From a virus, in IMG/VR virus record IMGVR_UViG_3300042731_006720, positions 1-35,189 of that record: a stretch of DNA of 35,189 nucleotides; one strand, given 5' to 3'. The notes below the pieces were generated by a model. The model ran no database searches, was not told where the DNA came from, and saw only the letters and a program-made list of their open reading frames with translations. Below are positions 2,414 through 35,189 of this stretch, piece by piece. The translations under genes and the position numbers were made by a program. Each line of letters opens with the position of its first letter. Position 1 is the stretch's first letter.

Positions 2414-2697
2414 CCCTGCCCCACGACGTCGCCTACTGGGACAAGCCCGAACAGGTCATCTGGGTGGACGTCGGACCCCGCCGCCTCCAGGGCATGGACT
2501 TCATGTGGGTCGGCGAGGACCGCTACGGCATGTGGAACGACCCCCGCAACCGGCACATCTACGACGGCCGGCAGGCGGTCGCCTGGACGTGGGACGGCGC
2601 CACCGAGGAGGAGGCGTGGCCCTGCGAGATTAGGGGCCGGGTCTACGAGGGGTTCATGCTGACCACAGAGCAGGCCGAGGCCGTGGGGATCCTCTGA
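2410..2697 (+). CDS. hypothetical protein, 95 aa, Trp-rich
   Basis: The start is ATG 2410, sharing ATGA with the stop of the LamG-like gene. An in-frame start 12 bases upstream would only add four residues and deepen the overlap. The protein is rich in Trp, Tyr and acidic residues (AYWDKPEQVIWVDVG, RYGMWNDPRNRHIYDG). It has no membrane segment and no Cys pair. It also overlaps the next gene (TGATG 2695-2699), so it is translationally coupled to both neighbours. I do not recognise a family. Its position between two appendage-like genes makes a small structural or assembly protein plausible. Confidence 0.65.
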   Translation: MTLPHDVAYWDKPEQVIWVDVGPRRLQGMDFMWVGEDRYGMWNDPRNRHIYDGRQAVAWTWDGATEEEAWPCEIRGRVYEGFMLTTEQAEAVGIL

Positions 2698-8834: not shown

Positions 8835-8847
8835 TAGCCTCACCGGC
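8835..8847 (+). promoter_or_regulatory. TAnnnT leaderless promoter of the tape measure gene
   Basis: TAGCCT 8835-8840, then seven bases, then GTG 8848. The bases before the GTG (CACCGGC) contain no ribosome site. Same hexamer as at 584 and 16872. Confidence 0.55.
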
Positions 8848-11091
8848 GTGACCATCCGCGAGAAAGTCATCCTCGAGGGCGAGGACCAGGCATCCCAGGC
8901 ATTCGACAGGGCCGGCGGATCGTTCGACAAGATGGGCAAGACCCTCAAGCGGGTGGCCGTCGCCGGCGGCCTGGCCATCGCCGCCAGCGGCCTCGCCCGA
9001 GTCGGCACCCAGGCCATCAACATGGCCATCGACGCCGAGGAAGCCGCCGCAGCCTTCGACACCACCTTCGGCGCCGCCCTTCCCCAGGCGAGCCGCTTCG
9101 TCGACGACTTCGCCAACAAGGCCGGGTTCGCCACCTACGAGCTGGAGCAGATGCTGGCGGTCACCGGCAACGTCGTCCAGGGCATCGGAGCCACCGAGGA
9201 GCAGAGCGCCGCCCTGGCCGAGGAGATGGCCACCCTCGCCGGCGACGTCGCCAGCTTCTCCAACGCCGCCGGCGGAGCCCCGGCCGTCATGCAGGCCCTC
9301 CAGAGCGCCATCAACGGCGAGCGGGAAGCCCTGAAAACCTACGGCCTGGCCATCAGCGAGGCGGAGGTTCAGGAGCGGGCCCTCACCGACACGAGGAAAG
9401 AAAGCGCCGACGAACTCACCCGCCTTGAGAAGGCGAACGCCACCATGGCCATCGCCTACGAGAAGGCCGGGAAGGCCGTCGGCGACCTCGACCGCACCCA
9501 GGACAGCAGCGCCAACACCCTCCGCCGCATCCAAGCCCGCCTCAAGGAAGCCGGCGTGGCCGCCGGCCAGGAATTCCTCCCCGCCCTTGAGGACCTTCTG
9601 CCCGTAGCCGAGGACCTCATACCCATCCTGGGCGAGGTCGGCGGGATGCTCGCCCAGCTTGCCGGGAACGCCGCCACCGCCGCCAGCGGACCCCTCAGCA
9701 AACTGCCCGACCTCTTCGACGGCCTCAGCATCGCCGCCAACAGCTTCATCCACGTCGGCGCCGGCGTCGCCAACGTCATCGCCGAAGTTTTCTCAGCCGG
9801 CCACTACGACGGAGCCCTCGCGGAGACCGCCCGCTTCGCCGCCCACGCCAACGACATCCGGAAGATCAACCGGGAACTCCGAGCCGAGATGGAGAAGGGC
9901 CGGCCGGCAGCCGACGTCTACGCCGACGGCATCCTCGCCCTGGCCCGAGCGAGCGACCTGAGCGAGGAAGGCCTCGACCGGATGGCGACCGCCACCGGAG
10001 CGGACACCCAGCAGCAGCTCGACGCCATCATGACCCTGCAGGCGTACGGCGAGGCGCAGGGATGGCGAGCCGAGAACCTCGCAATCCTCAAGGACCGCTA
10101 CCACGAGCTCCAGGGCGCCGTGGACATGGCCACCGGCAGCGAGGAGGGCCTGTACGGGGTCGTGGAGGGCTTCTCGGACGGGTGGGCGGACAACACCACC
10201 GCCATCTACGAGAACAACGCCGCCCTCGAGGAGGTCCCCGAGGCCGCCCGCGACGCCGCCGACGAAATCCTCGAGATGGAAGCCGCAGCGCAGGAGGCCG
10301 CCGAGGCCTTCCGCGACGACCTGGCCGAGGAGGCCAACGACTTCATCACCGGCTTTGAGAAGCTGCCCAAGCGGGCCAAGACCACCATGGACCAGTTCGA
10401 GAAGAACCTGACCGACCGGGTGAGCGCCCAGGCGGAGTTCTGGTCGAACCTCGCCGCCCTGGCGGAGGCCGGGTTCGGAGACCTGGCGGAGGCGATCCGC
10501 ATGGAGGGCCCGGAGCAGGCCGGCCTCCTGGAGGACCTGGTAGGCGACATGGAACGGGCCGCCGAACTGGACGACATGATCCGGGAGGGCGGCGAGCAGA
10601 TGCGCGACCTCACCGACGAGTACGCGACGGCGCTGGAGCAGAACGGCGACCAGATTCTCACGCCCCTCGGCGAGTTCGGCCAGGACATGATCGACAAGAT
10701 CGGCGAGGGCATCAAGGCGGGGAACCTCACCGGCATTCTCCTCGCCGAGGTTCAGGCGGCCGTGAACCGGGTGACCGGCAGGAGCTGGGCGCCGCCGAGC
10801 CCGAGCGACACCGGAGGTACCCGATTCCACGACGGAACGTGGGAGGTGCCCGGCAGCGGAGACTTCCAGGCGACCCTCCAGGGCGGCGAGATCGTCGTGC
10901 CGGCGCAGACCGGAGGCCGGGCGGCCTTCGCCCGGGAACTCGCCACCGAACTCGGCCGGCAGGGCGGAACCCGGAGCGACCGGCCCAACATCAGCGTCAA
11001 CGTCCAGGTCACCGTTCCCCGAGGGACGACGGTCAGCGAGGCCATCGCGGAGGCCGCAGCGCAGGGCGCCATCGAAGCGATCATGAACTGA
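8848..11091 (+). CDS. tape measure protein, 747 aa
   Basis: GTG 8848 is chosen because it lies seven bases behind TAGCCT and begins VTIREKVILEGEDQASQAFDRAG, a usual opening for this family. A hydrophobic stretch follows at residues about 33-52 (KRVAVAGGLAIAASGLARVG). Long helices and Ala/Glu-rich coiled coil run to about residue 640. The C-terminal region has a Gly/Pro linker (SWAPPSPSDTGGTRFHDG) and a hydrophobic end (VSEAIAEAAAQGAIEAIMN). The tape measure sets tail length and is ejected with DNA. At 747 residues it predicts a tail of roughly 110 nm by the usual 1.5 angstrom per residue rule. No peptidase or lysozyme domain is evident. Directly after the chaperone pair, as expected. Confidence 0.88.
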   Translation: MTIREKVILEGEDQASQAFDRAGGSFDKMGKTLKRVAVAGGLAIAASGLARVGTQAINMAIDAEEAAAAFDTTFGAALPQASRFVDDFANKAGFATYELEQMLAVTGNVVQGIGATEEQSAALAEEMATLAGDVASFSNAAGGAPAVMQALQSAINGEREALKTYGLAISEAEVQERALTDTRKESADELTRLEKANATMAIAYEKAGKAVGDLDRTQDSSANTLRRIQARLKEAGVAAGQEFLPALEDLLPVAEDLIPILGEVGGMLAQLAGNAATAASGPLSKLPDLFDGLSIAANSFIHVGAGVANVIAEVFSAGHYDGALAETARFAAHANDIRKINRELRAEMEKGRPAADVYADGILALARASDLSEEGLDRMATATGADTQQQLDAIMTLQAYGEAQGWRAENLAILKDRYHELQGAVDMATGSEEGLYGVVEGFSDGWADNTTAIYENNAALEEVPEAARDAADEILEMEAAAQEAAEAFRDDLAEEANDFITGFEKLPKRAKTTMDQFEKNLTDRVSAQAEFWSNLAALAEAGFGDLAEAIRMEGPEQAGLLEDLVGDMERAAELDDMIREGGEQMRDLTDEYATALEQNGDQILTPLGEFGQDMIDKIGEGIKAGNLTGILLAEVQAAVNRVTGRSWAPPSPSDTGGTRFHDGTWEVPGSGDFQATLQGGEIVVPAQTGGRAAFARELATELGRQGGTRSDRPNISVNVQVTVPRGTTVSEAIAEAAAQGAIEAIMN

Positions 11092-11914: not shown

Positions 11915-14900
11915 TGACGAGCTGGAGAGTTGAGGCCTGGACGCACCCAGGCGACCCCGGAGGGTTTGCGGTCAGGGACGCCGCCCTGCCGCTTCTGGCG
12001 TACGCCGGCAACGACCCCGAGGAGCCCCGAGGCCGGGTGAAGATAACCCTCCCCGCCACCTACGACTGGCAGACCCTCATCAGCACCCCGAACCCGACCG
12101 ACCCGGCGGACACGAGCATGATCCGGGTCTACCGGGAGGGCCAGGACCACACCACCGCCCCGGACGTCGAATACGTCCTGGAACGCTTCCAGAAGCGCCT
12201 AGACGACGTTCTCGGCGAGGTTGTGGAGGTCTACGGCGTCGATTGGAGGCTTGCGGGCCTGGACACCACGGTGCTCCGCTGGCACGACTGGGAGCCCGGA
12301 GCGACCAAGACCAACCAGCCCGACTGGATCTACGGCGGCAGCAACATCCTCGAAGGCGGGTTCGAGGACACCGGCGACGTCGGCCAGCAGTTCGAAATCT
12401 GGCACGACGGCGATGGAGGAGACTTCACCCTCAGCGACGGCGTCGACCCGACCGACCCCATCGCCTGGAACTCCTCGGCGAGCGGCGTCGAGAACGCCCT
12501 AGAAACCGACATCGCATCGATCACCGACGTCCTCGTCACCGGCGACGGCACCGAGAGCAGCCCGTGGGTGGTCGTCTACAACGTCCCGAAATTCGGCAAC
12601 ACCCTCACGGCCGACTTCTCCGGCATCACCGGAGACACCCAGCAGACCATCCAGGAGACCGAGGCCGGCGGGTGGAACACCGGCGGGTGGACGACCGCCC
12701 GGACCGTCAGCGACGGCACCGTCTACATCTTCGGCGGCTACGCCAGCAGCGGCGGGTTCGAGGTCACCGACGCCATCGCCCACACCGGCAGCCGCAGCCT
12801 CCGAGTCAACCCCCTCGACATTGCCACCCACGGCCGATACCCCGGAGCGCAGATCGTCCTCACCGGCCTCACCCCAGGCACCTACCAGGCCAGCATCTGG
12901 GCGTACACGAGCAGCACCACGGACCGCTTCCGGTTCATCGCCCGCACCATCTGGGAGGGCGAGCTCTACCGGGAGGACGGCCAGCTCGCCAGCAGCACCG
13001 GCGACCTCGGATACATCACCTTCCCCGCCAGCACCTGGACCCAAGTCACCATCCCCGACATTGTGGTGCCCGAGGGCATCGACCAGATCATCCTCCGCTT
13101 CTCCAACGTCGACGCCAGCGGCAACCCGAGCCCCTGGCACCTCGACGACCCGCACTTTGCGATGGGGATGCCGGCCAGGAACTGGGGCATCATCTCCAAC
13201 GAGGTCCTCGACGACGCCAACGTCGACCACGTCGCGACCGTCCCCCGCCTCACCTACATCACCGGCCGCACCTGGGACGGCACCGATGACTCCAGCAACA
13301 CGCCATGGCCCAGGGACGAGAGCGTCACCCTCCGCCGAGGCCAGAAATACGGCCGGCACCTTTTCGGCGGCACCGGCCGAGCCCTCGGCTACACCTACGA
13401 CCTCACCCCGAACACGACCGACCCAACCGACCCCGAATGGGACATGCACATCTGGGCGGCGGGGAACCGGGGCGTCACACACACCGACATTGGCTTCCAC
13501 GTCGGAGCGGGCGCAGCCGGCGGCCTGGTGGCAGGCCGCACCCCCAAGGCGACCCGCTGGCTGGCGGAGGGCGCCGACGGAATCATCGCCGAGGTCGCCG
13601 ACACCGACCAGGAGGACGAGACCGGGGTGGTCGAGGACTACTTCGGCAACAAGGACATCACCGACATCACGACCCTCACCGCCGCAGCGACGGAAGCCCT
13701 CAACGAGGACCTCGCCAACCGGATCGCCATCACCCTCGAGCTGGACGACAGCGCCCCCACGCCCTACGAGGACTTCAACGTGGGCGACCGGGCCGAGTTC
13801 GGCGCCGCCGGGACGATGGAGAAGCACGAGCGGACCATCAGCGACATTGCCCTCAGCGCCGAGGTCGCCAGCGGCGGGGAGCTTTCGTGGACGGCGACGA
13901 TCACCGCCAGCAAGCTGCTCACCGGCGAGGCCGCCTGGAAAGAGGCCGTGTACCGCTACCTCAGCGAGTTCAGAGGCATCCCCGAGGGCGGCAGCGGCAC
14001 CGCCGGCATCGGGGCAGGAGACCTCTTCGTCGGCGGCGACGTGTTCGCCGCGGACGCCGTCGTCGTGGAACTCGCCAGCGGCGTCCCCCTCACCCAGGCC
14101 ACCCACGTCACCGACGGCAGCACCGACAGCGCCACCATCCAAGCAATCATCAACACCCTCCCGGTCGGCGGCGGGACGATCTACTTCCATCCCGGCAACT
14201 ACTACATCACGACGGCCCTGCAACCGCCCGACGGCGGACGGCTCCGATTCAACTGCGCCCCAGGAGCGATCTTTCACATCACCGACGGCGTCAGTTTCGT
14301 TTCGATGTTCGGGAGCATCGTCAACGCCCAAGGGTTCTACATGGACGGCGGGCAGATCGTCGGCAACCCCGGCACCGGAGGCAACTCGGCGATCATCGGA
14401 GGAGGCGGAATCGGCAACGGGTTCGCAGACGTATTCCTCCAAAACGTCTACGTCCACGACATCGACTGCTCCTACGTCGTCGGCGGCGGGTGGGGAGGAC
14501 GGCGGATCATCACCAACTGCTTCTTCAAGAACATCAACCTGCGCCAAGCGGGGGGAGGTTTCACCGAGGGAGCGATCGTCGGCTACCAGGAGCCGAACAA
14601 CCAATACTCGATCACGATTTTCGCCAACAACCACGTTGACACCGTCACCTACACGCCCGGAACCGGCTGGTCCGGATGGATCGTCTACACCGAAACCCGG
14701 AACGGCATCGGCCTCGCCATCGGCAACCAGGTCCAAAACTGCTCAGGGTTGAACGGCGGCTACTGGGGCGACACCACGGTCGGCGTCCACAACGTCATCG
14801 ACGACTTCCACGAGGCGGGCGACCACACCGACACCATCGGCGAAATCTGGACCCAGCCCGAATTCCTCGCCGGCACCGTCAACATCATCAACTTCCACCA

Positions 14901-16871: not shown

Positions 16872-16885
16872 TAGCCTCAACGGCC
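16872..16885 (+). promoter_or_regulatory. TAnnnT leaderless promoter of the endolysin gene
   Basis: TAGCCT at 16872-16877, eight bases, then ATG 16886. No ribosome site lies between. GCCAGGGC upstream (16846-16853) also occurs before the promoter at 7945 (7921-7928), possibly a shared upstream element. Confidence 0.55.
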
Positions 16886-17632
16886 ATGAGCACCGTATGG
16901 GAAGGGCGGTGGCGGGTCGCCGGCACCAACTGGGAAGGCCGAGGCTGGCACCTCGCCCCGAGCCTCCGCCAGCTTGCGAAACAGGTCAGCGCCGACCAGC
17001 CCGCCGGCCAGCCGGGCGACGGCACCGTCGCCAGCCAACGCCACGACCAGGTGAGCCCGAACAGCGACCACCGGCCGAGCCCCCACGACGAGGAGGACAA
17101 CGCCACCGTCAGGGCCATCGACATCGGGGAGACCACCGACGAGGTCGGCCGCCGCATCGTCGACGCCATCGTCGACAGCCGAGACCCGAGGGTCCGGTAC
17201 ATCATCTACGAGGGCCGCAGCATTTGGGCCGAGCTGCACAACGGCTACCTGCCCTGGGAGTGGCAGCCCTACCGAGGCCTCGCCCCGCACACCGGACACT
17301 TTCACCTGAGCATCCGCAGGACAGCCAAGGCGGAGAACGACACCACCGAATGGAGGATCGACCCGATGGTCAGACGGACAGACAAGGCGGACGACGGCAA
17401 CCCGGACCTCGCCCCCAACTTCAACACCATGCAGCAGCGCGGCGTATTCACCGAGCACACCCAGCCGGGAGGCGTCACCTTCAATGACGAGTTCGGCACC
17501 TTCCTCCTCCGCCACGAGGCCTACCTGGTGGCGAAGTACGGCCTCGGCACCGGCGCCGGCGGACACGAGCCCACCGAGGAGGAGATCGACGCCGTAGTCG
17601 AGGAGATCATCGAACGATTGGAGAACGGATGA
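16886..17632 (+). CDS. endolysin, M15-type peptidase, 248 aa
   Basis: ATG 16886 lies eight bases behind TAGCCT. Zinc-site candidates of the VanY/M15 family are in order: SDHRP (His62), AIDIG (Asp79), and HTGHFHLS with His138 and His140. Between them, GRRIVDAIVDSRDPRVRYIIYEG is a typical mid-domain helix and strand. M15 enzymes cut peptide bonds in peptidoglycan stems, here from inside to burst the cell. The domain ends near residue 150. The remaining 100 residues, rich in Asp, Glu and Thr and ending EEEIDAVVEEIIERLENG, show no known wall-binding domain. No signal peptide is present, so release depends on a holin. Neighbours are small membrane proteins, as in a lysis cassette. Confidence 0.82.
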   Translation: MSTVWEGRWRVAGTNWEGRGWHLAPSLRQLAKQVSADQPAGQPGDGTVASQRHDQVSPNSDHRPSPHDEEDNATVRAIDIGETTDEVGRRIVDAIVDSRDPRVRYIIYEGRSIWAELHNGYLPWEWQPYRGLAPHTGHFHLSIRRTAKAENDTTEWRIDPMVRRTDKADDGNPDLAPNFNTMQQRGVFTEHTQPGGVTFNDEFGTFLLRHEAYLVAKYGLGTGAGGHEPTEEEIDAVVEEIIERLENG

Positions 17633-18251: not shown

Positions 18252-18283
18252 CACCGGGCGGGTTCCTGGGCATAGTCAAAGGT
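18248..18283 (+). promoter_or_regulatory. TTGACACC-class promoter of the early-type array
   Basis: TTGACA at 18248-18253, 17 bases, CATAGT at 18271-18276: the same boxes and spacing as the three island promoters. Here the start codon is not leaderless; a 35-42 base leader with AGAAGGGAG leads to GTG 18318. Only part of the upstream GAAACCGC...AAACCCC sequence is present (CACAAACCAC at 18238-18247). Confidence 0.75.
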
Positions 18284-19621: not shown

Positions 19622-19950
19622 GGTACGGCACGACCGTCGCCAAGAGCAACCGGGGCTACTACCACATCAGCATCGACCGAGGGAACCTGACCGCCAAGTG
19701 GAGACCCATCTGCGGGGCCCGGCCGCCGCAGCGGATGAGAAGCGGCAGCCCCAACGACCAGGCGACGACCGCCGGCGAGATGCTGCGGAAGTGGGAGAAC
19801 ACGATCCACCCGGACCTCAGGTGCACGGCGTGCACGAGCGAGGCCCGACGCCAGCGGGAGGCCGAGACCGAGGACGGACGGGTCCCCGAGCGGACCACGA
19901 GAAGGGCTGACGTCGGGCCCGCGAACCAGAATAGGCAGGAGACCCCATGA
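19618..19950 (+). CDS. hypothetical basic protein with Cys pair, 110 aa
   Basis: ATG 19618 shares ATGA. Residues 1-30 are beta-prone (MRYGTTVAKSNRGYYHISID). Cys32 and Cys69-x-x-Cys72 (DLRCTACTS) are candidate metal ligands, with one still unaccounted for. The C-terminal 35 residues are highly charged and low in complexity (EARRQREAETEDGRVPERTT). CACGAGAAGGG, the phage's ribosome-site box, occurs within the gene near 19896 but does not precede a start at the right distance. Not recognised. Confidence 0.58.
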   Translation: MRYGTTVAKSNRGYYHISIDRGNLTAKWRPICGARPPQRMRSGSPNDQATTAGEMLRKWENTIHPDLRCTACTSEARRQREAETEDGRVPERTTRRADVGPANQNRQETP

Positions 19951-20165
19951 GCACGAGCACCACCACCCTCCGAGACCCGGTAGGCATCAACGAGATCGCC
20001 GAACGGCTGCACGTCGAACCATCGACGGTGCGGAGCTGGCGGACCCGAGGGAAGCACATGACCCGGCAGGCGCCGATGCCCGAACCGAAACTCCACCTCA
20101 CCAACACCCCGTTGTGGGAGTGGAGCCAGATCGGAGCGTGGGCGGAGGAGACCGGCCGCCTTTGA
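19947..20165 (+). CDS. helix-turn-helix DNA-binding protein (MerR/excisionase-like), 72 aa
   Basis: ATG 19947 shares ATGA with the previous gene and has GGCAGGAG upstream. Residues about 12-36 are a clear helix-turn-helix (VGINEIAERLHVEPSTVRSW, then RTRGKHM). A wing-like segment follows (MPEPKLHLTNTPLWEWSQIGAW). This is the HTH_17/excisionase fold used by phages as Xis, Cox or small regulators. Ser-Thr-Val-Arg-Ser-Trp is the recognition helix. No integrase is seen in the window, so a regulator of phage promoters is as likely as an excisionase. It is the only obvious small regulator here besides the replication initiator. Confidence 0.78.
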   Translation: MSTSTTTLRDPVGINEIAERLHVEPSTVRSWRTRGKHMTRQAPMPEPKLHLTNTPLWEWSQIGAWAEETGRL

Positions 20166-24717: not shown

Positions 24718-24965
24718 CCACCGAACCGACAGAACGAGAGTGGCTAGAGGGCACCCACCCCGACGCCGAGGACGACGCCCGACCCCACCGAATCCCACCC
24801 TTCCCCGAACCCACCCCCGCCGAGGAGGAGGACCTCGCCAAGGCGAAAGCCCGAGCCCTCGCCGCCCTCCAAGAACTCACGGACCGCCTCAACGCCGCCC
24901 TAAAAGCCCAGGACGACACCACCCGAGTCACCATCACCATCCACACCAACGAGGAGCGCCTGTGA
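24714..24965 (+). CDS. hypothetical acidic/helical protein, 83 aa
   Basis: ATG 24714 shares ATGA. The N-terminal half is acidic and Pro-rich (EWLEGTHPDAEDDARPHRIP). The second half is a long helix (EEEDLAKAKARALAALQELT, then DRLNAALKAQD) and a final strand (TRVTITIHTNEERL). No motif is recognised. It couples the winged-helix gene to the methyltransferase gene, whose GTG overlaps its stop. Confidence 0.6.
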   Translation: MTTEPTEREWLEGTHPDAEDDARPHRIPPFPEPTPAEEEDLAKAKARALAALQELTDRLNAALKAQDDTTRVTITIHTNEERL

Positions 24966-26470
24966 GCCCGACCCCGATCGTCAGCACCCGCGAGGCCCCC
25001 ATCAAAGACCTCGCACCCCACCCGCAGAACCCGAACGAGCGGGAGACCGTCGAGGACATCCGCCGGAGCCTCCGCCGCTTCGGCCTCTACCGGACCATCG
25101 CCATCCAACAGTCCACCAACCACGTCATCGTCGGCAACCACACCTTCCTCGCCGCCCGCGAGGAGGGCTGGAAAACGATCAAGGTCAACGTCCTCGACGT
25201 CGACGACGAAACCGCCCTGGCGATCATGCTCGCCGACAACCGCCTCGCCGAGGCAGGAGCCCGAGACCCCGAAACCCTCGCCGACCTCCTCAAGCGCCTC
25301 GACGCCACCGACCTCGGCCTCGAGGGCACCGGCTACACCACCGCCGACCTAGCGGAACTCCTGGGCCCCGACCGGGCCGCCACCGGCACACCCCTCACCG
25401 AAAACTTCCTCGTCCCGCCCTTCACCGTCCTCGACAGCCGCCAGGGCTACTGGAAAGCCCGGAAACAGGAGTGGATGGCCCTCGGCATCCGCAGCGAACT
25501 CGGCCGGGACCAAAACCTCGCCATGGACAGCCTCAGCGGCCGGGTGCCCGACTACTACGACCAGAAGCGCACCATCGAGGCGTACCTGGGCCGCACCATC
25601 CCCAACGCCGAGTTCGAGGAGAAGTGGCTCCGCATGCCCGAGAACGAGAGCACCATGGGCGCCAGCGGCACCAGCATCTTCGACCCGGTCCTCTGCGAGG
25701 TCGCCTACCGCTGGTTCGCCCCCGAGGAGGGCCACGTCCTCGACCCCTTCGCCGGCGGCAGCGTCCGAGGCATCACCGCCGCCCTCACCGGCCGCACCTA
25801 CACCGGCATCGACCTCGCCGGCGACCAGCTCGCCGCCAACCGGGCGCAATGGCAGGCCATCGACGCCGCCCTCATCGACGCCGGCCCCCAACCCGAATGG
25901 ATACACGGCGCCAGCCCCGACGCCATCCCCGACGAGCCCGCAGACCTCATCTTCACCTGCCCGCCGTACTTCGACCTGGAGCGGTACAGCGACCACGAGG
26001 ACGACCTGAGCAACATGACCTGGGCCCAATTCAAGAAGGCCCACGACGCCGTCATCGAGGCCAGCCTCGCCCGCCTCCGGGAGAACCGCTTCGCCGTCTG
26101 GGTCATCGCCGACGTACGCGACAAGAAGGGCAACTACCGAGGCCTCGTCGCCGAAACCATCCGCAGCTTCCAACGCCACGGAGCCCACCTCTACAACGAC
26201 GCCGTCCTCGTCACCCCCACCGGCAGCCTCGCCGTCACCGCCGGCCGCCAATTCCGAGCCAGCCGGAAGCAAGGGAAACAACACCAGAACGTCCTCGTCT
26301 TCGGCAAACCCGGCGACGACCCCCTCGGCCAGGCCGTCCACGAGGCATTCACCGAGGCCTGGACCCTCGGCCGCAACCACCAGAACGTCCTCACCTTCGT
26401 CAAAGGCGACGGCAAGAAGGCCACCGGCGACCTCGGCGACGTCGCAGTCGATACCCTGCCAGAGCTATGA
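24962..26470 (+). CDS. ParB-like domain DNA methyltransferase, 502 aa
   Basis: GTG 24962 shares GTGA with the previous stop. Residues about 10-110 are a ParB/sulfiredoxin-type domain: DLAPHPQNPNERETVEDIRR, GLYRTIAIQQ, VIVGNHTFLAAREEGW. The C-terminal part is an amino-methyltransferase: motif I at Asp261 (VLDPFAGGSVRG) and motif IV at 332-336 (TCPPY, with Cys where Ser is usual). Between lies a probable target-recognition segment. The fusion is known in phages and would modify adenine or cytosine in phage DNA, guarding against restriction. It lacks the helix-turn-helix of segregation ParB, so parS binding is not expected from this protein. Confidence 0.78.
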   Translation: MSPTPIVSTREAPIKDLAPHPQNPNERETVEDIRRSLRRFGLYRTIAIQQSTNHVIVGNHTFLAAREEGWKTIKVNVLDVDDETALAIMLADNRLAEAGARDPETLADLLKRLDATDLGLEGTGYTTADLAELLGPDRAATGTPLTENFLVPPFTVLDSRQGYWKARKQEWMALGIRSELGRDQNLAMDSLSGRVPDYYDQKRTIEAYLGRTIPNAEFEEKWLRMPENESTMGASGTSIFDPVLCEVAYRWFAPEEGHVLDPFAGGSVRGITAALTGRTYTGIDLAGDQLAANRAQWQAIDAALIDAGPQPEWIHGASPDAIPDEPADLIFTCPPYFDLERYSDHEDDLSNMTWAQFKKAHDAVIEASLARLRENRFAVWVIADVRDKKGNYRGLVAETIRSFQRHGAHLYNDAVLVTPTGSLAVTAGRQFRASRKQGKQHQNVLVFGKPGDDPLGQAVHEAFTEAWTLGRNHQNVLTFVKGDGKKATGDLGDVAVDTLPEL

Positions 26471-28479: not shown

Positions 28480-30072
28480 ATGCCGGCCAGCCCGGAGCAG
28501 GTCGCCCGCCTAGAGGCAGACCCCCTCACCTGGAAACTCGCCCTCTTCGAGAAATACCAGACCGCCCACGACGGCGCCATCATCGCCGACGCCCCGCACC
28601 ACCGCCGCTTCTGGACCTGGCTGTGGGACATTCAACCGGGACGCCGGCCCCGCCCCTTCGTCGGCATCTGGCCACGAGGAGGAGCCAAGAGCACCAACGC
28701 CGAAATGGGCGCCATCGCCCTCGGCGCCCCACGCCAGCAGGAGGACGGCAGCCGCCGGCCCACCCGCAACTACGCCTGGTACGTCAGCGAGGTCCAGGAC
28801 CAGGCCGACGACCACGTCGAGACCGTCGGCGCCATGCTCGAGAGCAGCGAACTCGCCACCTTCTACCCCGACCTCGCCCGCCGAGCCGTCAACAAGTACG
28901 GCAGCAGCCGAGGCTGGCGCCGCAACCGCCTGAGGACCGCAGCCGGCTTCACCGTCGACGCCGTAGGCCTCGACACCGCCGCCCGAGGCATCAAGATCGA
29001 GGAGGCCCGCCCCGGCCTCATCGTCTTCGACGACATCGACGGCCGCCACGACAGCCAGGCGACCACCGACAAGAAGCGGGAGACCATCACCCAAACCCTC
29101 ATCCCCGCCGGCAGCGCAGACCGGGCCCTCATGTTCATCCAGAACCTCGTCCACCCCACCAGCATCTTCGCCCAGCTCGCCGACGGCAGCGCCGGCTTCC
29201 TCACCCAGGCGCACATCAGCGGCCCCGTCCCCGCCGTCGAGGACCTCACCTACGCCGCCAAGCGGGACCGCATCGTCATCACAAGCGGCACCCCGACCTG
29301 GGCCGGCCAGGACCTCGACACCTGCCAGGCGGACATCGACGAGATCGGCATCACCGCATTCCTCCAAGAAGCCCAACACGAAGTCGAGGCGCCACCCGGC
29401 GGCATGTTCGACCACCTCGACCTCGCCGCCCTCCGCATCGACTGGGACGACGTGCCGCCCCTCGACCGGGTCGTCGTTTGGGTGGACCCGGCCGTCACCA
29501 AGAAAGACCAGAGCGACGCCCACGCCATCCAGGCCGACGGCATCGCCGGCGACACGATCTACCGCCTCCACTCGTGGGAGCAGAGGAGCACACCCCTCGC
29601 CGCCATCAAGCGGGCCATCCAGACCGCCGCCCGCTACGGCGCCACCTACGTCGGCGTCGAAACCGACCAGGGAGGAGACACCTGGCGCAGCACCTTCCGC
29701 GAGGCCCGCACCGCCGCCGCCGAGGAGGCCACCGGCGACGACCGGGACCGCATCCGCCGCATCCGCTTCGCCGAGGCCAAGGCCGGCCAGGGCCAAGACC
29801 CCAAGACCCACCGAGCGAGCATCATGCTCGCCGACTACGAGAAGCCCGGCCGCCGCATCCGCCACGTCACCGGCACCCACCTCGTCCTCGAGAAAGCCCT
29901 CGCCCGCTTCCCCAAAACCCACCCCCTCGACCTGGTGGACGCCGGCTACTGGGCGTGGAACGACCTGAGGAACAAGCCCGAGATCGCCGGCTACGCCGCC
30001 GACATAGAAGCCGACCTCGCCGACGAGCCCAGCGACCCCTACGCCGCCGACCGGGTCTCCCGCATCTGGTAG
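28480..30072 (+). CDS. terL: terminase large subunit, 530 aa
   Basis: ATG 28480 is chosen because AAGGA lies nine bases upstream; an in-frame GTG at 28438 would overlap the previous gene by 37 bases. The ATPase domain has Walker A PRGGAKST (residues 65-72) and Walker B LIVFDD with Asp184/Asp185. The C-terminal nuclease domain has VVWVDPAV (Asp336), GVETDQGG (Glu394, Asp396) and DLVDAGYW (Asp487). Length and order are normal for TerL, the motor that pumps DNA into the procapsid and cuts it. Fold-specific hints about pac or cos packaging cannot be drawn here. Behind its stop comes the first promoter cassette. Confidence 0.92.
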   Translation: MPASPEQVARLEADPLTWKLALFEKYQTAHDGAIIADAPHHRRFWTWLWDIQPGRRPRPFVGIWPRGGAKSTNAEMGAIALGAPRQQEDGSRRPTRNYAWYVSEVQDQADDHVETVGAMLESSELATFYPDLARRAVNKYGSSRGWRRNRLRTAAGFTVDAVGLDTAARGIKIEEARPGLIVFDDIDGRHDSQATTDKKRETITQTLIPAGSADRALMFIQNLVHPTSIFAQLADGSAGFLTQAHISGPVPAVEDLTYAAKRDRIVITSGTPTWAGQDLDTCQADIDEIGITAFLQEAQHEVEAPPGGMFDHLDLAALRIDWDDVPPLDRVVVWVDPAVTKKDQSDAHAIQADGIAGDTIYRLHSWEQRSTPLAAIKRAIQTAARYGATYVGVETDQGGDTWRSTFREARTAAAEEATGDDRDRIRRIRFAEAKAGQGQDPKTHRASIMLADYEKPGRRIRHVTGTHLVLEKALARFPKTHPLDLVDAGYWAWNDLRNKPEIAGYAADIEADLADEPSDPYAADRVSRIW

Positions 30073-30138
30073 GAAACCGCCCCAAACCCCTTGACACCAG
30101 GCCGGGGCCCCGGCATAGTAGAGGGTATGAGAGACACC
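30070..30138 (+). promoter_or_regulatory. promoter cassette copy 1 (TTGACACC class, leaderless)
   Basis: Starts in the TerL stop: TAGGAAACCGCCCC and AAACCCC, then TTGACA 30091-30096, 17 bases, CATAGT 30114-30119, seven bases, ATG 30127, and the shared first codons ATGAGAGACACC to 30138. The spacer contains the palindrome GCCGGGGCCCCGGC (30101-30114). Aligns base by base with 31393-31461 and 33065-33133. Confidence 0.85.
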
Positions 30139-30495
30139 AACCTGCGCTTCACCCTGACCACCGAACACGGCACCTGGGAAGTCGAGCAAGTCAAGCCCGC
30201 CGACCCGACCGCCACCCACTGCGAGCTTTGCGGCCGGCCCAACCCCGGCAACAACGACGGCTACACCGCCTGCTGCGACGAGCTTTTCTGCGACGGCGGC
30301 ACCTGCGTCTGGCTCAAGAGCACAGACCGGAACGGCCACACCAGCACCGAGCACCACCGGAGCCGAGCCGAGGCCATCGACCAGAACACCCCAACCGCCT
30401 ACCGCGCCGAGACCGACCCCTGCGAGAAGGGCACACCCGGATGCAGCGTCCGCCACAGCGCCATCAGCATCGAGACCAACTGCCAGACCTGGTAG
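30127..30495 (+). CDS. Cys-rich zinc-binding protein, 122 aa, island operon 1
   Basis: ATG 30127 lies seven bases behind CATAGT; an upstream GTG at 30091 lies in the promoter and is rejected. The protein opens MRDT like the other two first genes of the island. Nine Cys: Cys32-x-x-Cys35 (HCELCGRPN), Cys49/50, Cys55, Cys60 (ACCDELFCDGGTC), then 99, 106 and 119. Two zinc sites are likely in the middle. Short strands surround them. Function unknown. An early or constant expression is expected from the consensus-like promoter. Confidence 0.68.
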   Translation: MRDTNLRFTLTTEHGTWEVEQVKPADPTATHCELCGRPNPGNNDGYTACCDELFCDGGTCVWLKSTDRNGHTSTEHHRSRAEAIDQNTPTAYRAETDPCEKGTPGCSVRHSAISIETNCQTW

Positions 30496-30507
30496 GAGCC
30501 GAACCGC

Positions 30508-30675
30508 ATGACGACCTTCACACCAAGAGACACCACCACCGAGGAACTGCGGAAGCACCTCGCCGGCTACGAGCAGGAACTCGAAACCGGCCTCAGCAAG
30601 CAGGCCCGGACAGCGACCCGCATCAAGGCGCAGGCCATCCGCATCGTCCTCCAAGAACGAGGAGCAGCCGAATGA
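30508..30675 (+). CDS. small helical protein, 55 aa
   Basis: ATG 30508 has GGAG at 30494-30497, eleven bases upstream, across the previous stop. Two helices: TTEELRKHLAGYEQELETGL and SKQARTATRIKAQAIRIVLQ, with many Arg and Lys. The region around TTFTPRDTTTE echoes the RDT of the promoter-cassette genes. No Cys. A short coiled-coil or DNA-binding peptide is possible; no family known. Confidence 0.6.
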   Translation: MTTFTPRDTTTEELRKHLAGYEQELETGLSKQARTATRIKAQAIRIVLQERGAAE

Positions 30676-30962
30676 GGAGCACCTACCAAGGCCGAGCCAA
30701 CGCAGCGAAGGCCTACGCCAAGATCAGCGGCCACCACGGCCACGTCGGAGGCTGGATCTTCGGCCCCACCGGCGGCCGCACCGGACGCCAGGGCTGGAGC
30801 GAATTCGGGAAGGCCCTCAACCTCGCCGGCCACATCACCAGCACCGACGAGAAGGCCCTCGACTGGATCATCACGGAGCGAGGCAGGGCCCACGCCGAAC
30901 GCCTCGCCGAGAAGTACGCCGGCCAGGAATGCCGCCACCCCGGACACCGGAGCACGCCATGA
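30672..30962 (+). CDS. hypothetical basic protein, 96 aa
   Basis: ATG 30672 shares ATGA with the previous stop. There is a basic Gly-rich segment (YAKISGHHGHVGGWIFGPTG and GRTGRQGWSEFGKAL) and a C-terminal helix (KALDWIITERGRAHAERLAE). One Cys near the end with two His (ECRHPGHRSTP). Family not recognised. It sits third in the first island operon and is coupled to both neighbours. Confidence 0.6.
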   Translation: MRSTYQGRANAAKAYAKISGHHGHVGGWIFGPTGGRTGRQGWSEFGKALNLAGHITSTDEKALDWIITERGRAHAERLAEKYAGQECRHPGHRSTP

Positions 30963-31156
30963 GCGCCAGCAGGCCCCGAGCGATCCGGAAGCGCCTCACC
31001 CTCACCCTCACCCACGCCCAATACCGACAGCTCGCCGGCGCCGTCGACCGAGCCAGCCAGGAGCTCGCAGAGGACGGCCGAGGAGGCGAAGCTGCCACAC
31101 TGGAGCGGGCCTGGGACCGCCTCCGCGACGCCTGGCACGAAGGACCTCGACAATGA
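30959..31156 (+). CDS. hypothetical helical basic protein, 65 aa
   Basis: ATG 30959 shares ATGA. The start is basic (SASRPRAIRKRLTLTLT). The rest is two helices (HAQYRQLAGAVDRASQELAE and AATLERAWDRLRDAWHEGPR). A short strand followed by two helices, with KRLTLTLTHAQYRQLAGAVD, recalls ribbon-helix-helix regulators, where the strand pair contacts DNA. That match is loose but worth a check. It overlaps the next gene. Confidence 0.58.
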   Translation: MSASRPRAIRKRLTLTLTHAQYRQLAGAVDRASQELAEDGRGGEAATLERAWDRLRDAWHEGPRQ

Positions 31157-31395
31157 GCGACCACCTCCACGACGAGCCCGAGAACACGACCAGCGGCGAA
31201 ACCGGCTGGGCCGTCTACCGCGACGGCACCCAGCGCAGCCCGAGCGGCATGACCTACGGCGAGGCCTTCGCCTGGCTTCTCCGAGCCCAGGGCCAGAGCG
31301 TCCACCACGCCACCACCCACGAGGGCTGGGAACTCCGGGAGCAGCCCTACTGCCAGCCGCACGACATCTACGACTGCCCCTTCGCCCACGGCTAA
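31153..31395 (+). CDS. hypothetical small protein with C-terminal Cys/His, 80 aa
   Basis: ATG 31153 shares ATGA. An acidic N-terminus (SDHLHDEPENTTSGE) precedes a small folded segment (GWAVYRDGTQRSPSGMTYGE, AFAWLLRAQGQSVHHA). Cys67, His70, Cys75 and His79 (YCQPHDIYDCPFAHG) would fit a metal site. It is the last gene of island operon 1. Its TAA stop is the first codon of promoter cassette copy 2. Not recognised. Confidence 0.58.
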   Translation: MSDHLHDEPENTTSGETGWAVYRDGTQRSPSGMTYGEAFAWLLRAQGQSVHHATTHEGWELREQPYCQPHDIYDCPFAHG

Positions 31396-31461
31396 GAAAC
31401 CGCACCAAACCCCTTGACACCCGAGGGTGGAGGCGGCATAGTTGACCGTATGAGAGACACC
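31393..31461 (+). promoter_or_regulatory. promoter cassette copy 2 (TTGACACC class, leaderless)
   Basis: TAAGAAACCGCACCAAACCCC, then TTGACA 31414-31419, 17 bases, CATAGT 31437-31442, seven bases, ATG 31450 and shared codons to 31461. Nearly identical to copy 1 outside the spacer, and it again begins in a stop codon. Confidence 0.85.
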
Positions 31462-31641
31462 ACACCAACGACCACCACGGTCACCTACCGCACCATCTAC
31501 ATGCCGGCCAACGCCGAGCCCCGCACCAAGACCTTCAAAGACCTGGGCCCGAGGATCGACAGCCTCACCCTCGCCCGCAACTGGATGCAGCGGAACGGCA
31601 TCGTCGCCATCACCATCGACACGACAGCAGCAGCCGAATGA
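31450..31641 (+). CDS. hypothetical small protein, 63 aa, first gene of island operon 2
   Basis: ATG 31450 is seven bases behind CATAGT with no room for a ribosome site. The MRDT start is shared with the genes at 30127 and 33122. A Thr-rich segment (TPTTTTVTYRTIYMPANAEP) leads into a helix (LARNWMQRNG) and a final strand (IVAITIDTTAAAE). The layout beta-alpha-beta is compatible with a small compact domain. No Cys. Family not recognised; coupled by ATGA to the next gene. Confidence 0.62.
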   Translation: MRDTTPTTTTVTYRTIYMPANAEPRTKTFKDLGPRIDSLTLARNWMQRNGIVAITIDTTAAAE

Positions 31642-31871
31642 GCGACCGCACCGCAGCAGCCAAGGCCAGGGTTGCCCAGGCATGGGCCGACCTCGGCGAC
31701 GACGACACACCCGACTGGCGCACCGCCAAGCCATGGCGAGGCCAGGCAGGCTGGGGCGTCGGCATCGACCACACCGGAGCCTTCTGGACCAACATGGGCA
31801 GAGGCTGGTACGGCCCCTACGAGACCGAGGCAGAGGCGCAGGCCCTCCTCGACGCCGAGACAGCCGAATGA
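31638..31871 (+). CDS. hypothetical Trp-rich small protein, 77 aa
   Basis: ATG 31638 shares ATGA. An N-terminal helix (TAAAKARVAQAWADLGDD) is followed by a segment rich in aromatic residues and Gly: DWRTAKPWRGQAGWGVGIDH, then FWTNMGRGWYGPYETEAEAQ. W-G-V-G-I-D-H-T-G and W-Y-G-P-Y look like strands of a small beta sheet. No metal ligands. It is not recognised. Small Trp-rich folds of this kind occur among anti-restriction and host-factor inhibitors, but no specific match can be claimed. Confidence 0.6.
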   Translation: MSDRTAAAKARVAQAWADLGDDDTPDWRTAKPWRGQAGWGVGIDHTGAFWTNMGRGWYGPYETEAEAQALLDAETAE

Positions 31872-31894
31872 GCGACCACGAGAAGGGAAGCAAC

Positions 31895-32101
31895 ATGACC
31901 AACCTGAACCACATCCCCGACGAGGACCTCGACCTCCTCGCCGAGCAGGCAGGCGAAATCCTCGCCGAGCAGGCCTCCGGCTTCGGCTACCCCGAGGCCA
32001 CCGTCCGCCGGGCCCGCCAGTGGATCGCCGAGCGGAACCGCCGAGCCTTCGCCGGCCTCGAGACCACCGAGGCCTGCCGGCAGGGAAGGGCCCGCCGATG
32101 A
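31895..32101 (+). CDS. hypothetical helical acidic protein, 68 aa
   Basis: ATG 31895 is preferred over the in-frame ATG 31868 because CACGAGAAGGGAAGCAAC, the phage's conserved ribosome-site box, sits directly before it. The longer form would have that box inside its coding sequence. The protein is helical (IPDEDLDLLAEQAGEILAEQ, TVRRARQWIAERNRRAFAGL) and acidic at its start. One Cys. No family recognised. Confidence 0.58.
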   Translation: MTNLNHIPDEDLDLLAEQAGEILAEQASGFGYPEATVRRARQWIAERNRRAFAGLETTEACRQGRARR

Positions 32102-32373
32102 GCCGCCCACGCCGAGCCGGCAGCGTCCGCTTCGACCCCTACTGGAAAGTCCAATGGTGGGACAAGACCAGCCTCACCTGGCGCGACATTCAGCGCAGCC
32201 ACCACACCAGGGAGGCCGCCATCGACGCCGCCGTCGCCCACCACCTCGCCAACGGCCAGCCCGGCGTCCGCCTCATGCGGATCACCGAGACCGGCCGAGC
32301 ACCCGAACCCATGAAAATCACGCCCCTCCCACCGGAGGCGGCAGCCTGGCTCAGAGAAGGGAGCACAGAATGA
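32098..32373 (+). CDS. hypothetical basic protein, 91 aa
   Basis: ATG 32098 shares ATGA with the previous stop and has GGGAAGGG upstream. A basic beta-prone start (RPRRAGSVRFDPYWKVQWWD) is followed by SLTWRDIQRSHHTREAAIDA, a helix, and a Pro-rich end (PMKITPLPPEAAAWL). The pattern of strand, W-x-D-I-Q and helix reminds me of small integrase-type N-terminal AP2-like folds, which bind DNA, but the match is weak. Unknown function. Confidence 0.56.
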   Translation: MSRPRRAGSVRFDPYWKVQWWDKTSLTWRDIQRSHHTREAAIDAAVAHHLANGQPGVRLMRITETGRAPEPMKITPLPPEAAAWLREGSTE

Positions 32374-32657
32374 CCGGACCACGAGCACGAGAACTAGCCC
32401 ACCACTGGGAGGAGGCCCGCCGAGGAGAGACCAACTTCACCGCCGGCCTATTCCGCCTCCTCGCCAAGGCCGACCCGGAGAACCGGGAGCGCATCCGGGC
32501 CGGCTTCCCCGAGGAGGTCGCCTGGCTCGAAACCTGGCACGCCATCCCCAACGGCGAGGAGTGGATACAGGACCACCTCGACGGCCGCCTAGACCACAAC
32601 GCCTACGAGGCCTTCGCCGCAGCGGCGACGACCCGAGTCCACGAGCACCAGCGATGA
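32370..32657 (+). CDS. hypothetical helical protein, 95 aa
   Basis: ATG 32370 shares ATGA and follows AGAGAAGGGAGCACAGA. The protein is helical throughout (RARELAHHWEEARRGETNFT, LFRLLAKADPENRERIRAGF, PEEVAWLETWHAIPNGEEWI). No Cys. The middle FRLLAKADPENRERIRAGFP resembles short phage proteins found as stand-alone genes in many tailed phages, whose role is unknown. Coupled to the next gene. Confidence 0.6.
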   Translation: MTGPRARELAHHWEEARRGETNFTAGLFRLLAKADPENRERIRAGFPEEVAWLETWHAIPNGEEWIQDHLDGRLDHNAYEAFAAAATTRVHEHQR

Positions 32658-33067
32658 GCGACCAGCGACACTGGATCATGAACCCCCGAGGACACCGCGC
32701 CTTCGCCAACGAGATGAACCCCCACCAGACCGGCGACACCGTCGACACCCCCATGGGCGAGGCCGTCTTCCTCAAGCTGCCCGACCCGCAGGGAGGAGCC
32801 TGGTACTGCGACATCTGCAGCAGCCAGATCCTCACCGCCTGGGGCGACGAGCCGATGCCCGTGCCGGCCGACGGCAGCTACGCCCTCTGCGGCCCCTGCC
32901 GGGAGCGGATCGAGCAGGGCCCGAGGTTCAGCGACCGCACCGGCGAACCCATCCCCAACACCCAGGCGGGCCCCTGGCCGCCCGCCGGCTGCAACTGCCC
33001 GCCATGCCAGAACACCACCCAGGCGTGGGGCCGGCAGCTCGTCAACGCCTACCACCTCACCCCCTAG
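32654..33067 (+). CDS. protein with several CxxC motifs, 137 aa
   Basis: ATG 32654 shares ATGA. A beta-rich first part (QTGDTVDTPMGEAVFLKLPD) is followed by zinc-type pairs Cys52-x-x-Cys55 (YCDICSSQIL) and Cys79-x-x-Cys82 (LCGPCRERIE), which together make a complete four-Cys site. The C-terminus adds Cys113, Cys115 and Cys118 (CNCPPCQNTT). The four-Cys arrangement fits a zinc ribbon. It is the last gene of island operon 2. Its TAG stop opens promoter cassette copy 3. Not recognised. Confidence 0.65.
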   Translation: MSDQRHWIMNPRGHRAFANEMNPHQTGDTVDTPMGEAVFLKLPDPQGGAWYCDICSSQILTAWGDEPMPVPADGSYALCGPCRERIEQGPRFSDRTGEPIPNTQAGPWPPAGCNCPPCQNTTQAWGRQLVNAYHLTP

Positions 33068-33133
33068 GAAACTGCCGCAACCCCCTTGACACCCGAGGAG
33101 GGTTGCGGCAATGTTGGAGCCATGAGAGACACC
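33065..33133 (+). promoter_or_regulatory. promoter cassette copy 3 (TTGACACC class, leaderless)
   Basis: TAGGAAACTGCCGCAACCCCC, then TTGACA 33086-33091, 17 bases, CAATGT 33109-33114, seven bases, ATG 33122 and shared codons to 33133. The -10 differs by two bases from the other copies, so it may be the weakest of the three. Confidence 0.82.
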
Positions 33134-33802
33134 GACATCAAGGCCTACCACCTGGACCCCGACAAGGACGGCGCCAGCTTCGACGACCCGAAATACGACC
33201 CCGAGAACGCCGAGGCCCTCGCCGCCGAACGGCAGGCCGACCTCGACGCCAAGCGGGAACTGGCCGCCTGGCTCAACCAGCAGAACTGGAGCGAATTCGC
33301 CAAGAGCCTCGCCGAGCAGTTCTACCGCAAGGGCATGGCCGCCGACAGCCTGAGCCCAAAACAGTGGGCCGCCGCCGAGAGCATGAAGGCGAAATGCGAC
33401 GCCAAGGCCGCCGAGCGGGCCGCCCGCAAGGAAGCCGAGGCGAGCCGCCCCGAGACCGGCATCGACCTGCGGACCATCCCCAGCGGCTACTACGCCGTCC
33501 CCGACGGCGACACCCGCCTCAAGGTCCGGGTCAACCACGTCGACAAGGGCCGGTGGGCCGGCTACACCTTCGTCGACGACGGAGCCGAATACGGCAACCG
33601 CCGCAACTACGGCCGCCAAGCCCCCGACGGCACCTACCAAGGAGACATCGCAGACGCCCTCAAGGCCATCGTCGCCGACCCGACAGCAGCAGCAGCCCGC
33701 TACGGCCACATCACCGGACGCTGCGGCATCTGCAACCGCCAGCTCGAGGACGAGGCCAGCGTGGCGAGGGGAATCGGCCCCATCTGCGCCAAGAACCTCT
33801 AG
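33122..33802 (+). CDS. protein with C-terminal DUF6011-like zinc motif, 226 aa
   Basis: ATG 33122 lies seven bases behind the -10 and opens MRDT. A helical charged region (residues 25-110, with runs of Ala, Glu, Lys) precedes a beta segment (GYYAVPDGDTRLKVRVNHVD, RWAGYTFVDDGAEY). The C-terminus RCGICNRQLEDEASVARGIG-PICAKNL carries Cys201, Cys204 and Cys222 and matches the short zinc domain DUF6011, whose hallmark is E-S/A-V-A-R-G-I-G-P-x-C. That domain occurs at the end of many phage and plasmid proteins; its role is not known. It is the only gene between cassette copy 3 and the terminator. Confidence 0.75.
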   Translation: MRDTDIKAYHLDPDKDGASFDDPKYDPENAEALAAERQADLDAKRELAAWLNQQNWSEFAKSLAEQFYRKGMAADSLSPKQWAAAESMKAKCDAKAAERAARKEAEASRPETGIDLRTIPSGYYAVPDGDTRLKVRVNHVDKGRWAGYTFVDDGAEYGNRRNYGRQAPDGTYQGDIADALKAIVADPTAAAARYGHITGRCGICNRQLEDEASVARGIGPICAKNL

Positions 33803-33836: not shown

Positions 33837-33880
33837 GCGCCCCGGCCAGCGGAGACCCCGCAGCCGGGGCGCCTTCCGTT
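33837..33880 (+). terminator. intrinsic terminator between the island and the portal gene
   Basis: GCGCCCCGGC (33837-33846) pairs perfectly with GCCGGGGCGC (33863-33872). The 16-base loop can form a small inner GCGG/CCGC stem. CTTCCGTT follows, a poor T tract much like TTTCGTTT after the terminator at 1213. Short GGAGC repeats precede it (33815-33830). Confidence 0.75.
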
Positions 33881-33881
33881 G

Positions 33882-33895
33882 TAGGCTGGGCCCCG
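33882..33895 (+). promoter_or_regulatory. TAnnnT leaderless promoter of the portal gene
   Basis: TAGGCT 33882-33887, eight bases, ATG 33896, directly after the terminator. No ribosome site lies between. It matches the TACCCT/ATG 1259 arrangement. Confidence 0.55.
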
Positions 33896-35189
33896 ATGAG
33901 CAGACTCACCGACGGCCTCGCCAACCTCCTCGGCGTCCAACCGACGAGCCCCACCATCATCAACCACATCGAGGAGGCGGCCCCGAGGGTCGACCCCGAC
34001 GACCACCTCTACCGCATCACCGGCCACGGCCTCCGAGACCTCACCGGCGCCACCCTCCGCCGAGCGCAGGACATCAGCGTGGACCTCTACCGCAAGAACG
34101 CCCTCGCCAACCGCATCGTGAAGATCTACACGACCTTCATGGCCGGCGACGGGTTCGCCCTCAGCGCCGACAACCCCGACGTCCAGGCCACCATCGAGGA
34201 GTTCTGGTACGCCGAGCGGAACGAGATGGACCTCAACCACCGCCGCTTTGCCCGAGACTGGCTGCTTTACGGCGAAGGCTTCCACCCGGTCGCCACCGAC
34301 GAGGCCGGCAACACCACCATCGGCTTCATCGACCCCCAGCAGGTCGACAAGATCACCGCCAGCAAGATGAACCAGCTTGTCCTGGAGACCGTCCACCTCC
34401 ACGCCACCGAGGAGCAGAGACCCCTCCAGATCGTCAGCCGGCAGACCGACCCCGCCCTAGAGGACCTTGGCCTCCTCACCGGCGACACGTTCGCCTGGCT
34501 CTACGACCGGATCGGAGCGAGCACCCGAGGCACCCCATTTCTCCTCCCCCTTCTGGACTGGCTCGACGCCTACGACCAGACCCTCTGGGAGTTGATCGAA
34601 CGGATGAAGGCGGTCCGAGCCTTCTTCTGGGACGTCGGCGTGGAGGGCGGAGCCGAGGAGGTCGAACAGGCCAAGGCCATCTGGGGCACGACAGCCCCGA
34701 GGAGCGGCAGCGTACGGTTCCGCAGCAACGCCATGGAGGTAGACGCCACCCAGCCGAGCATCGGCGCCTACGAGGACGTGGCAGGCGCCAGGTTCATCCT
34801 CCGCCTCATCGCCACCGGCGCCGGCCTCGCACCCCACTGGCTGGGCGACCCGGAGGACGCCAACCGGAGCACCGCCGAGCAGATGGACGTCCCCGTCCTC
34901 CGAGCCCTCGCCGACACCCAGGCCGTCTGGAAGGCGCAGATGGAGGAGGCCCTCCGCTTCACCGTCGACCGGAAGGTCGCCGCCGGGATGCTGCCCGCCG
35001 TCGTCGAACGCTACGACGAGCAGGGCAACCCGACCGGAGACATGGTGCCGGCCGGCGACACCGTCGAAGTCATCACGCCCGCCCTCACCGACGACGAGAT
35101 CGAGGCGGCCGCAGCGAGCATCGCCGCCGTCGCCGGAGCCTTCGCCCAACTCGACATGCTCGACCTGGCCGACCGCGACGCCATGCGGT
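33896..35189 (+). CDS. portal protein, 3' partial (431 codons in window)
   Basis: ATG 33896 starts an open frame that runs off the window. The sequence has the features of siphophage portals: DLYRKNALANRIVKIYTTFM then AGDGFALSA near residues 65-90 and FWYAERNEMDLNHRRFARDW. LLYGEGFHPVATDEAGNTTI and FIDPQQVDKI follow (about residues 122-160), and later RGTPFLLPLLDWLDAYDQTL and ATGAGLAPHWLGDPEDANRS. GLAPHWLGD and the acidic helical end match the stem and crown. The portal is the dodecameric ring through which DNA enters the head. Its position after the island, not straight after TerL, is unusual. The adaptor at the left edge suggests that this gene continues into the missing capsid block. Confidence 0.85.
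   Translation, partial: MSRLTDGLANLLGVQPTSPTIINHIEEAAPRVDPDDHLYRITGHGLRDLTGATLRRAQDISVDLYRKNALANRIVKIYTTFMAGDGFALSADNPDVQATIEEFWYAERNEMDLNHRRFARDWLLYGEGFHPVATDEAGNTTIGFIDPQQVDKITASKMNQLVLETVHLHATEEQRPLQIVSRQTDPALEDLGLLTGDTFAWLYDRIGASTRGTPFLLPLLDWLDAYDQTLWELIERMKAVRAFFWDVGVEGGAEEVEQAKAIWGTTAPRSGSVRFRSNAMEVDATQPSIGAYEDVAGARFILRLIATGAGLAPHWLGDPEDANRSTAEQMDVPVLRALADTQAVWKAQMEEALRFTVDRKVAAGMLPAVVERYDEQGNPTGDMVPAGDTVEVITPALTDDEIEAAAASIAAVAGAFAQLDMLDLADRDAMR

Follow-up and report, generated by a model that had tools for sequence, protein, structure and literature searches.

Leaderless genes are common in Actinobacteria and are marked by -10 boxes situated ~12 bases 5′ of the start codon (PMC3160421). 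Their translation is inhibited by structure near the start and enhanced by CA repeats downstream, and what aids the ribosome in choosing leaderless starts is an open question (PMC9031893). Leaderless sigma-70/SigA promoters have been described in Actinobacteria and their phages, including PL1 and PR2 of Cluster O mycobacteriophages (PMC4351075) and the TANNNT starts (PMC3160421). Cluster K mycobacteriophages instead possess start-associated sequences (SAS), conserved 13-bp sequences within 3–9 bp on the 5′ side of the start codon, and extended start-associated sequences (ESAS) with a SigA-like promoter and a conserved 15–17 bp inverted repeat (PMC11373665). The present analysis concerns three promoter cassettes, P1, P2 and P3, in a 35,189-base record of an uncultured virus of 69% GC (IMG/VR record IMGVR_UViG_3300042731_006720, hereafter the window). 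Each cassette joins a very probably leaderless promoter to 12 invariant coding bases, ATGAGAGACACC, with which otherwise unrelated genes begin. Leaderless promoters have precedents in phages, whereas a fixed coding start is unusual.

The cassettes constitute a single direct-repeat family over 70 bases in which P2 and P3 are 81% and 73% identical to P1, respectively (Table 1). The common block of 69–70 bases includes TTGACACC, a 17-base spacing, a -10 hexamer (CATAGT in P1 and P2, CAATGT in P3), seven bases and finally ATGAGAGACACC. Two AAACC tracts 10 bases apart are centred near -42 and -52. The hexamer spacing of 17 in the window, and of 16–17 in the relative G001 described below, lies in the 16–18 bp range of sigma-70-type promoters. 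The joint pattern was matched three times in the window and never in 100 dinucleotide shuffles. When both strands were scanned by alignment, P1–P3 scored 37–69 and a sister promoter, P4, scored 27.3 compared with values of no more than 17.4 elsewhere. A gene start at 30508 resembles a collapsed cassette (TAGGAGCCGAACCGC...CCTTCACACC...AGAGACACC, 30490–30535), but with an alignment score of 11.7 against a background of 17 it was rejected as a decayed copy. No RNA family was matched in an Rfam search. The original prediction, made from the sequence of the window, had described three such units fused to a stop codon and to genes that all begin MRDT but otherwise are unrelated. The units are located as predicted with the elements listed above, and the three genes are dissimilar past the 12-mer. 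Duplication of whole operons, raised at the time as a competing origin, is rejected because the repeat ends at 70 bases and no similarity is found beyond it. By contrast, the stop codon is not an integral part of the unit: in each of P1–P3 of the window it lies exactly 57 bases 5′ of the ATG, whereas the distance is 54 bases in P2 of G001, where it overlaps the AAACC block, and 87 bases in P1 of G001.

The cassettes resemble the leaderless promoters of Actinobacteria and their phages in the -35/-10 hexamers, in a fixed short distance from the -10 box to the ATG, in a predicted +1 at the start codon and in the presence of several copies per phage genome (PMC4351075, PMC3160421). The available text of these two reports describes no shared coding bases past the start codon, whereas 12 are invariant in P1–P3. 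The likeness to start-associated sequences that had been suggested previously holds as a general idea, as both are short sequences repeated at many gene starts in a phage and ESAS also hold SigA-like promoters (PMC11373665), but extends no further. SAS lie 5′ of the start codon and extend the ribosome binding site, whereas in P1–P3 the seven bases before the ATG are unconserved and the conservation is inside the gene. Moreover, a repeat comparable to that of ESAS is found in P3 only, P1 possessing a partial palindrome and P2 and both G001 copies none. The P3 repeat is a perfect 11-bp inverted repeat (33073–33083/33100–33110) that covers the -35 hexamer and spacer, folds with -30 kcal/mol as RNA and could be either the terminator of the preceding operon or an operator. 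The 12-mer also can be compared with downstream CA repeats and the downstream box (PMC9031893): in each case unstructured, A/C-rich coding bases after a leaderless AUG could aid initiation, but the 12-mer is one fixed sequence copied among genes and its aid to translation is putative. A comparison of A/C-richness between leaderless-like and Shine-Dalgarno (SD)-led starts in other phages gave a weak trend, confounded by GC content and locus choice, and was not used.

Relatives were sought by pattern scans of viral contigs and by a terminase search. The distinct relative, G001, is 42,322 bases in length with a terminase that is 73% identical to that of the window; positions in G001 are given in the same sense as the window (reverse complement). 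Two further records are near-identical copies, L034 being a fragment (99.9%) and L036 nearly the same sequence as G001. Alignment with relatives, as the original prediction had proposed, revealed that G001 retains P1 (2805) and P2 (4344) before orthologs of the same genes, with the AAACC block, -35 and -10 hexamers, gap length and 12-mer all kept. Mean pairwise identity among the five leaderless copies was 0.83 in the upstream block, 1.00 in the -35 hexamer, 0.53 in the spacer, 0.80 in the -10 hexamer, 0.37 in the seven bases before the ATG, 1.00 from +1 to +12 and 0.35 from +13 to +24. Between G001 and the window, P1 and P2 have all 12 coding bases in common, compared with identities of 33–50% in the next 12 bases and 50–53% in the spacer. 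The distance from the -10 hexamer to the ATG is seven bases in all five copies, even in P1 of G001 in which the -35/-10 spacing is 16 bases. A gap that is fixed in length but free in sequence is the signature of transcription start at the ATG and not of a ribosome binding site; although the gap in P3 contains GGAG, this is too near to the ATG for a usual SD sequence. Thus, the geometry supports the predicted leaderless nature of the transcripts, and P1–P3 very probably are leaderless promoters.

The codon usage of the 12-mer is informative. AGA accounts for ~4% of arginine codons in both genomes (31 of 734 in the window; 37 of 980 in G001). Among 284 aligned identical arginines, AGA is used at eight positions in the window and at 11 in G001, but in both genomes at three only, and two of these three are cassette starts. 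The retention of a rare codon implies that ATGAGAGACACC most likely is held as nucleotides and not merely as the peptide MRDT. With the 12-mer kept in five of five cassettes amid diverged flanks, the pattern expected of a downstream enhancer of leaderless mRNA, selection at the nucleotide level is considered probable.

The gene behind P3 exists in two states. In G001 its ortholog (~4569) directly follows the P2 gene, is preceded by GAGGA before the ATG and begins MGQIRDHH; neither a promoter of the P1–P3 class before this ortholog nor MRDT was found. In the window the same DUF6011 gene follows other island genes and has MRDT, the promoter and its leaderless arrangement. The two proteins are securely homologous from residue 12 onward in window numbering, and a more exact statement that homology resumes directly after base 12 was dropped. 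Promoter and coding start therefore were gained or lost together, which supports the earlier proposal of portable units and suggests that the promoter-plus-start module spread as a unit.

A fourth promoter, P4, emerged from a promoter scan. Upstream it carries CGCCACAAACCAC, a match to the corresponding block of P1–P3, but the bases that follow the -10 hexamer by seven positions read GACAAGCGTCACG..., and the probable gene start is ~34 bases further on, at a GTG behind AGAAGGGAG. P4 lacks ATGAGAGACACC in both the window and G001. The promoter class thus has leadered and leaderless forms, of which the leaderless form alone is joined to the 12-mer. This distribution argues against an element that is transcriptional only.

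Over their first 40 bases, the mRNAs of the five cassettes fold with 0, -5.2, -3.8, -3.9 and -2.3 kcal/mol, compared with a mean of -10.1 kcal/mol (standard deviation 3.9) for in-frame windows of the genome. An open 5′ end thus characterizes the cassette genes. The best explanation overall, to which modest confidence is attached, is that host-sigma-type leaderless promoters are coupled to a nucleotide-level start element that serves an accessory gene island. It draws on the conserved blocks, the fixed seven-base gap of free sequence, the gain or loss of MRDT along with the promoter and the weak 5′ structure, as these are read from sequence. Transcription from each of P1–P3 would begin at the A of the ATG or no more than one base away, and the gene at the head of each small operon would be translated without a leader. 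For ATGAGAGACACC, the likeliest role would be to keep the 5′ end of the leaderless RNA open and rich in adenine, so that ribosomes can load. Translation is proposed only tentatively as the function of the 12-mer. A stronger version, which is doubtful at present, is that AUGAGAGACACC is a sequence-specific start element for leaderless mRNAs that moves between genes with the promoter and tags accessory operons to be translated preferentially or under regulation. If true, this element would contrast with the view that a 5′-terminal AUG or GUG is enough.

Several observations weigh against this explanation. In Mycobacterium smegmatis, RTG at +1 suffices for leaderless initiation, and randomisation of positions +4 to +9 yielded no preferred sequence (PMC4633059). 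The evidence base comprises five cassettes from two phage lineages, L034 and L036 being near-identical copies. Furthermore, a second class of leaderless-looking start, TAG[CG][CA]T-N6..8-RTG, precedes several late-type genes in the window, in G001 and in the more distant L037 without TTGACA or a common coding start. Three such sites in the window and six in G001 (10238, 13294, 15053, 23077, 29708 and 30129) compare with 0.3 and 0.2 expected, respectively; L037 has sites at 12701 and 15346, and the G001 portal gene has a gap of 10 after the box. These sequences are probable late promoters. Their lack of the 12-mer suggests that these phages can dispense with it at leaderless starts and speaks against a general requirement in leaderless translation. 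The second-class starts also fold with -4.7 to -12.5 kcal/mol, near to background, and an open 5′ end therefore is not general.

Among other explanations for the invariant block, the one that fares best, although it is judged unlikely, is that the 12-mer belongs to an operator, possibly together with the AAACC block or with GACACC repeats at -34 and +7, through which a phage regulator co-regulates P1–P3 but not P4. The confinement of the block to P1–P3 and their orthologs, its absence from other leaderless-looking starts and its identity in unrelated genes suit a DNA or RNA site, and a small helix-turn-helix protein is encoded at 19947–20165. However, the block lacks palindromic symmetry, it is missing from P4 in both genomes although P4 otherwise is the same promoter, only a single copy (30526) is present outside starts in the window, and no regulator is linked to it. 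Somewhat less probable is that the 12-mer reflects descent only, as leftover identity from copying of cassette and gene start, or that MRDT is conserved for a reason at the protein level. The cassettes clearly are related, and the constant distance of the stop codon in the window copies fits copying. Nevertheless, the block is identical between orthologs whose flanks on both sides are 14–53% identical, the rare AGA codon is retained, and the P3 gene in G001 is without MRDT at its start. Less probable again is that the block, as an initially transcribed sequence, is adapted to promoter escape by RNA polymerase or to its choice of start site: the first base of the block coincides with the predicted +1, its beginning is purine-rich and it accompanies the TTGACA class only, but P4 of that same class has an unrelated initial sequence in both genomes, and 12 fully fixed bases exceed what such effects usually need. 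Finally, a gene start at the in-frame TTG of TTGACA, with the 69 bases as conserved coding sequence, is very improbable and was rejected: although TTG and ATG are joined by an open frame in P1–P3 of the window and in P2 of G001, the spacer of P1 in G001 is one base shorter, which places the TTG out of frame while the block is intact, no SD sequence precedes the TTG, and the predicted peptides differ.

The preferred reading of host-sigma-type leaderless promoters with a nucleotide-level start element bears on the organization of the region between the terminase and portal genes. P1–P3 would drive three small operons there (30127–31395, 31450–33067 and 33122–33802), by which an island of small accessory genes gains its own transcription. 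A hairpin that is the likely terminator would close the island, and a separate second-class start would serve the portal gene. The phage most likely employs the host sigma factor for P1–P3; promoters of the housekeeping-sigma type would make the island expressible apart from late transcription. UP elements are contacted by the RNA polymerase alpha subunit around the positions occupied by the AAACC tracts, which probably act in a similar manner or as a shared activator site. A moron is an accessory gene that lies among late phage genes and has a promoter and terminator of its own. The island is similar to morons in its small genes, own promoters and end hairpin, but differs in containing several small operons rather than a single gene and in its common promoter-plus-start module.

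Table 1. Cassettes, related promoters, first genes and hairpin in the window.
Feature	Positions	Strand	Description
Cassette P1	30070–30138	+	AAACC block 30074–30090; -35 TTGACA 30091–30096; -10 CATAGT 30114–30119; N7; ATGAGAGACACC 30127–30138; ortholog in G001
Cassette P2	31393–31461	+	-35 TTGACA 31414–31419; -10 CATAGT 31437–31442; N7; ATGAGAGACACC 31450–31461; ortholog in G001
Cassette P3	33065–33133	+	-35 TTGACA 33086–33091; -10 CAATGT 33109–33114; N7; ATGAGAGACACC 33122–33133; absent before G001 ortholog of its gene
P4	18232–18320	+	CGCCACAAACCAC; TTGACA 18248; spacing 17; CATAGT 18271–18276; leader; SD-like AGAAGGGAG before GTG 18318; no 12-mer; G001 ortholog at 31543
First gene after P1	30127–30495	+	Cys-rich protein of 122 aa that may bind zinc; begins MRDT; no family match; G001 ortholog also MRDT
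First gene after P2	31450–31641	+	Protein of 63 aa; begins MRDT; no family match; G001 ortholog also MRDT
Gene after P3	33122–33802	+	226 aa, DUF6011/phrog_636; MRDT in window, MGQIRDHH and SD-like site in G001
Hairpin	33837–33872	+	Perfect 10-bp GC hairpin after last island gene, before portal gene; no clear T run
Second-class start	8835–8850	+	TAGCCT-N7-GTG; probable tape-measure gene (start 8848; role from size and sequence); conserved in G001 (23090)
Second-class start	16872–16888	+	TAGCCT-N8-ATG; 248-aa gene (possibly endolysin)
Second-class start	33882–33898	+	TAGGCT-N8-ATG; portal gene (33896); no TTGACA, no 12-mer

The motif was sought beyond this clade. The sequence ATGAGAGACAC after a promoter-like sequence was found in 17 stretches in phages compared with seven and 16 for controls of the same composition; three of the 17 belong to this clade and ~10 to one marine family, where they represent a single gene start. 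The 12-mer outside the clade thus is at control level, and a general leaderless phage motif was rejected. A feature of the host was rejected also, as neither the strict P1/P2-type pattern (CATAGT -10) nor a terminase relative was found in ~85,000 prokaryote genomes. The database search with the 69-bp sequence that the original prediction had proposed, with accessory genes of other phages in mind, gave no match among the deposited phages of INPHARED. The closest terminases among known phages are 24–28% identical, and the cassette module was not seen in 20 scanned records with terminases of no more than 62% identity. Other uncultured phages have repeated leaderless-looking promoters (L031 at 1508, 2139 and 4052; L081 at 223 and 16969; L053 at 250 and 574), some of which have shared Thr-rich starts (MATTT, MTTT), an idea similar to that of P1–P3 in a different sequence.

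The window encodes a terminase, a portal protein, a replication O-like protein, a ParB-like/DNA methyltransferase protein in which the two domains are fused (24965–26467) and a Holliday-junction-type nuclease. An 829-residue open reading frame (2697–5186) contains many imperfect TDxAGxTDxT-type repeats and probably specifies a structural or fibre protein. The window is a fragment: comparison with G001 suggests that ~6 kb are absent between its end at the portal gene and its start, and further cassette copies therefore may exist. A leaderless module that fixes the first four codons, a leadered sister without the 12-mer and one gene in both states together comprise a natural test for a start element, and the promoter-plus-start module would be a ready-made compact expression unit.

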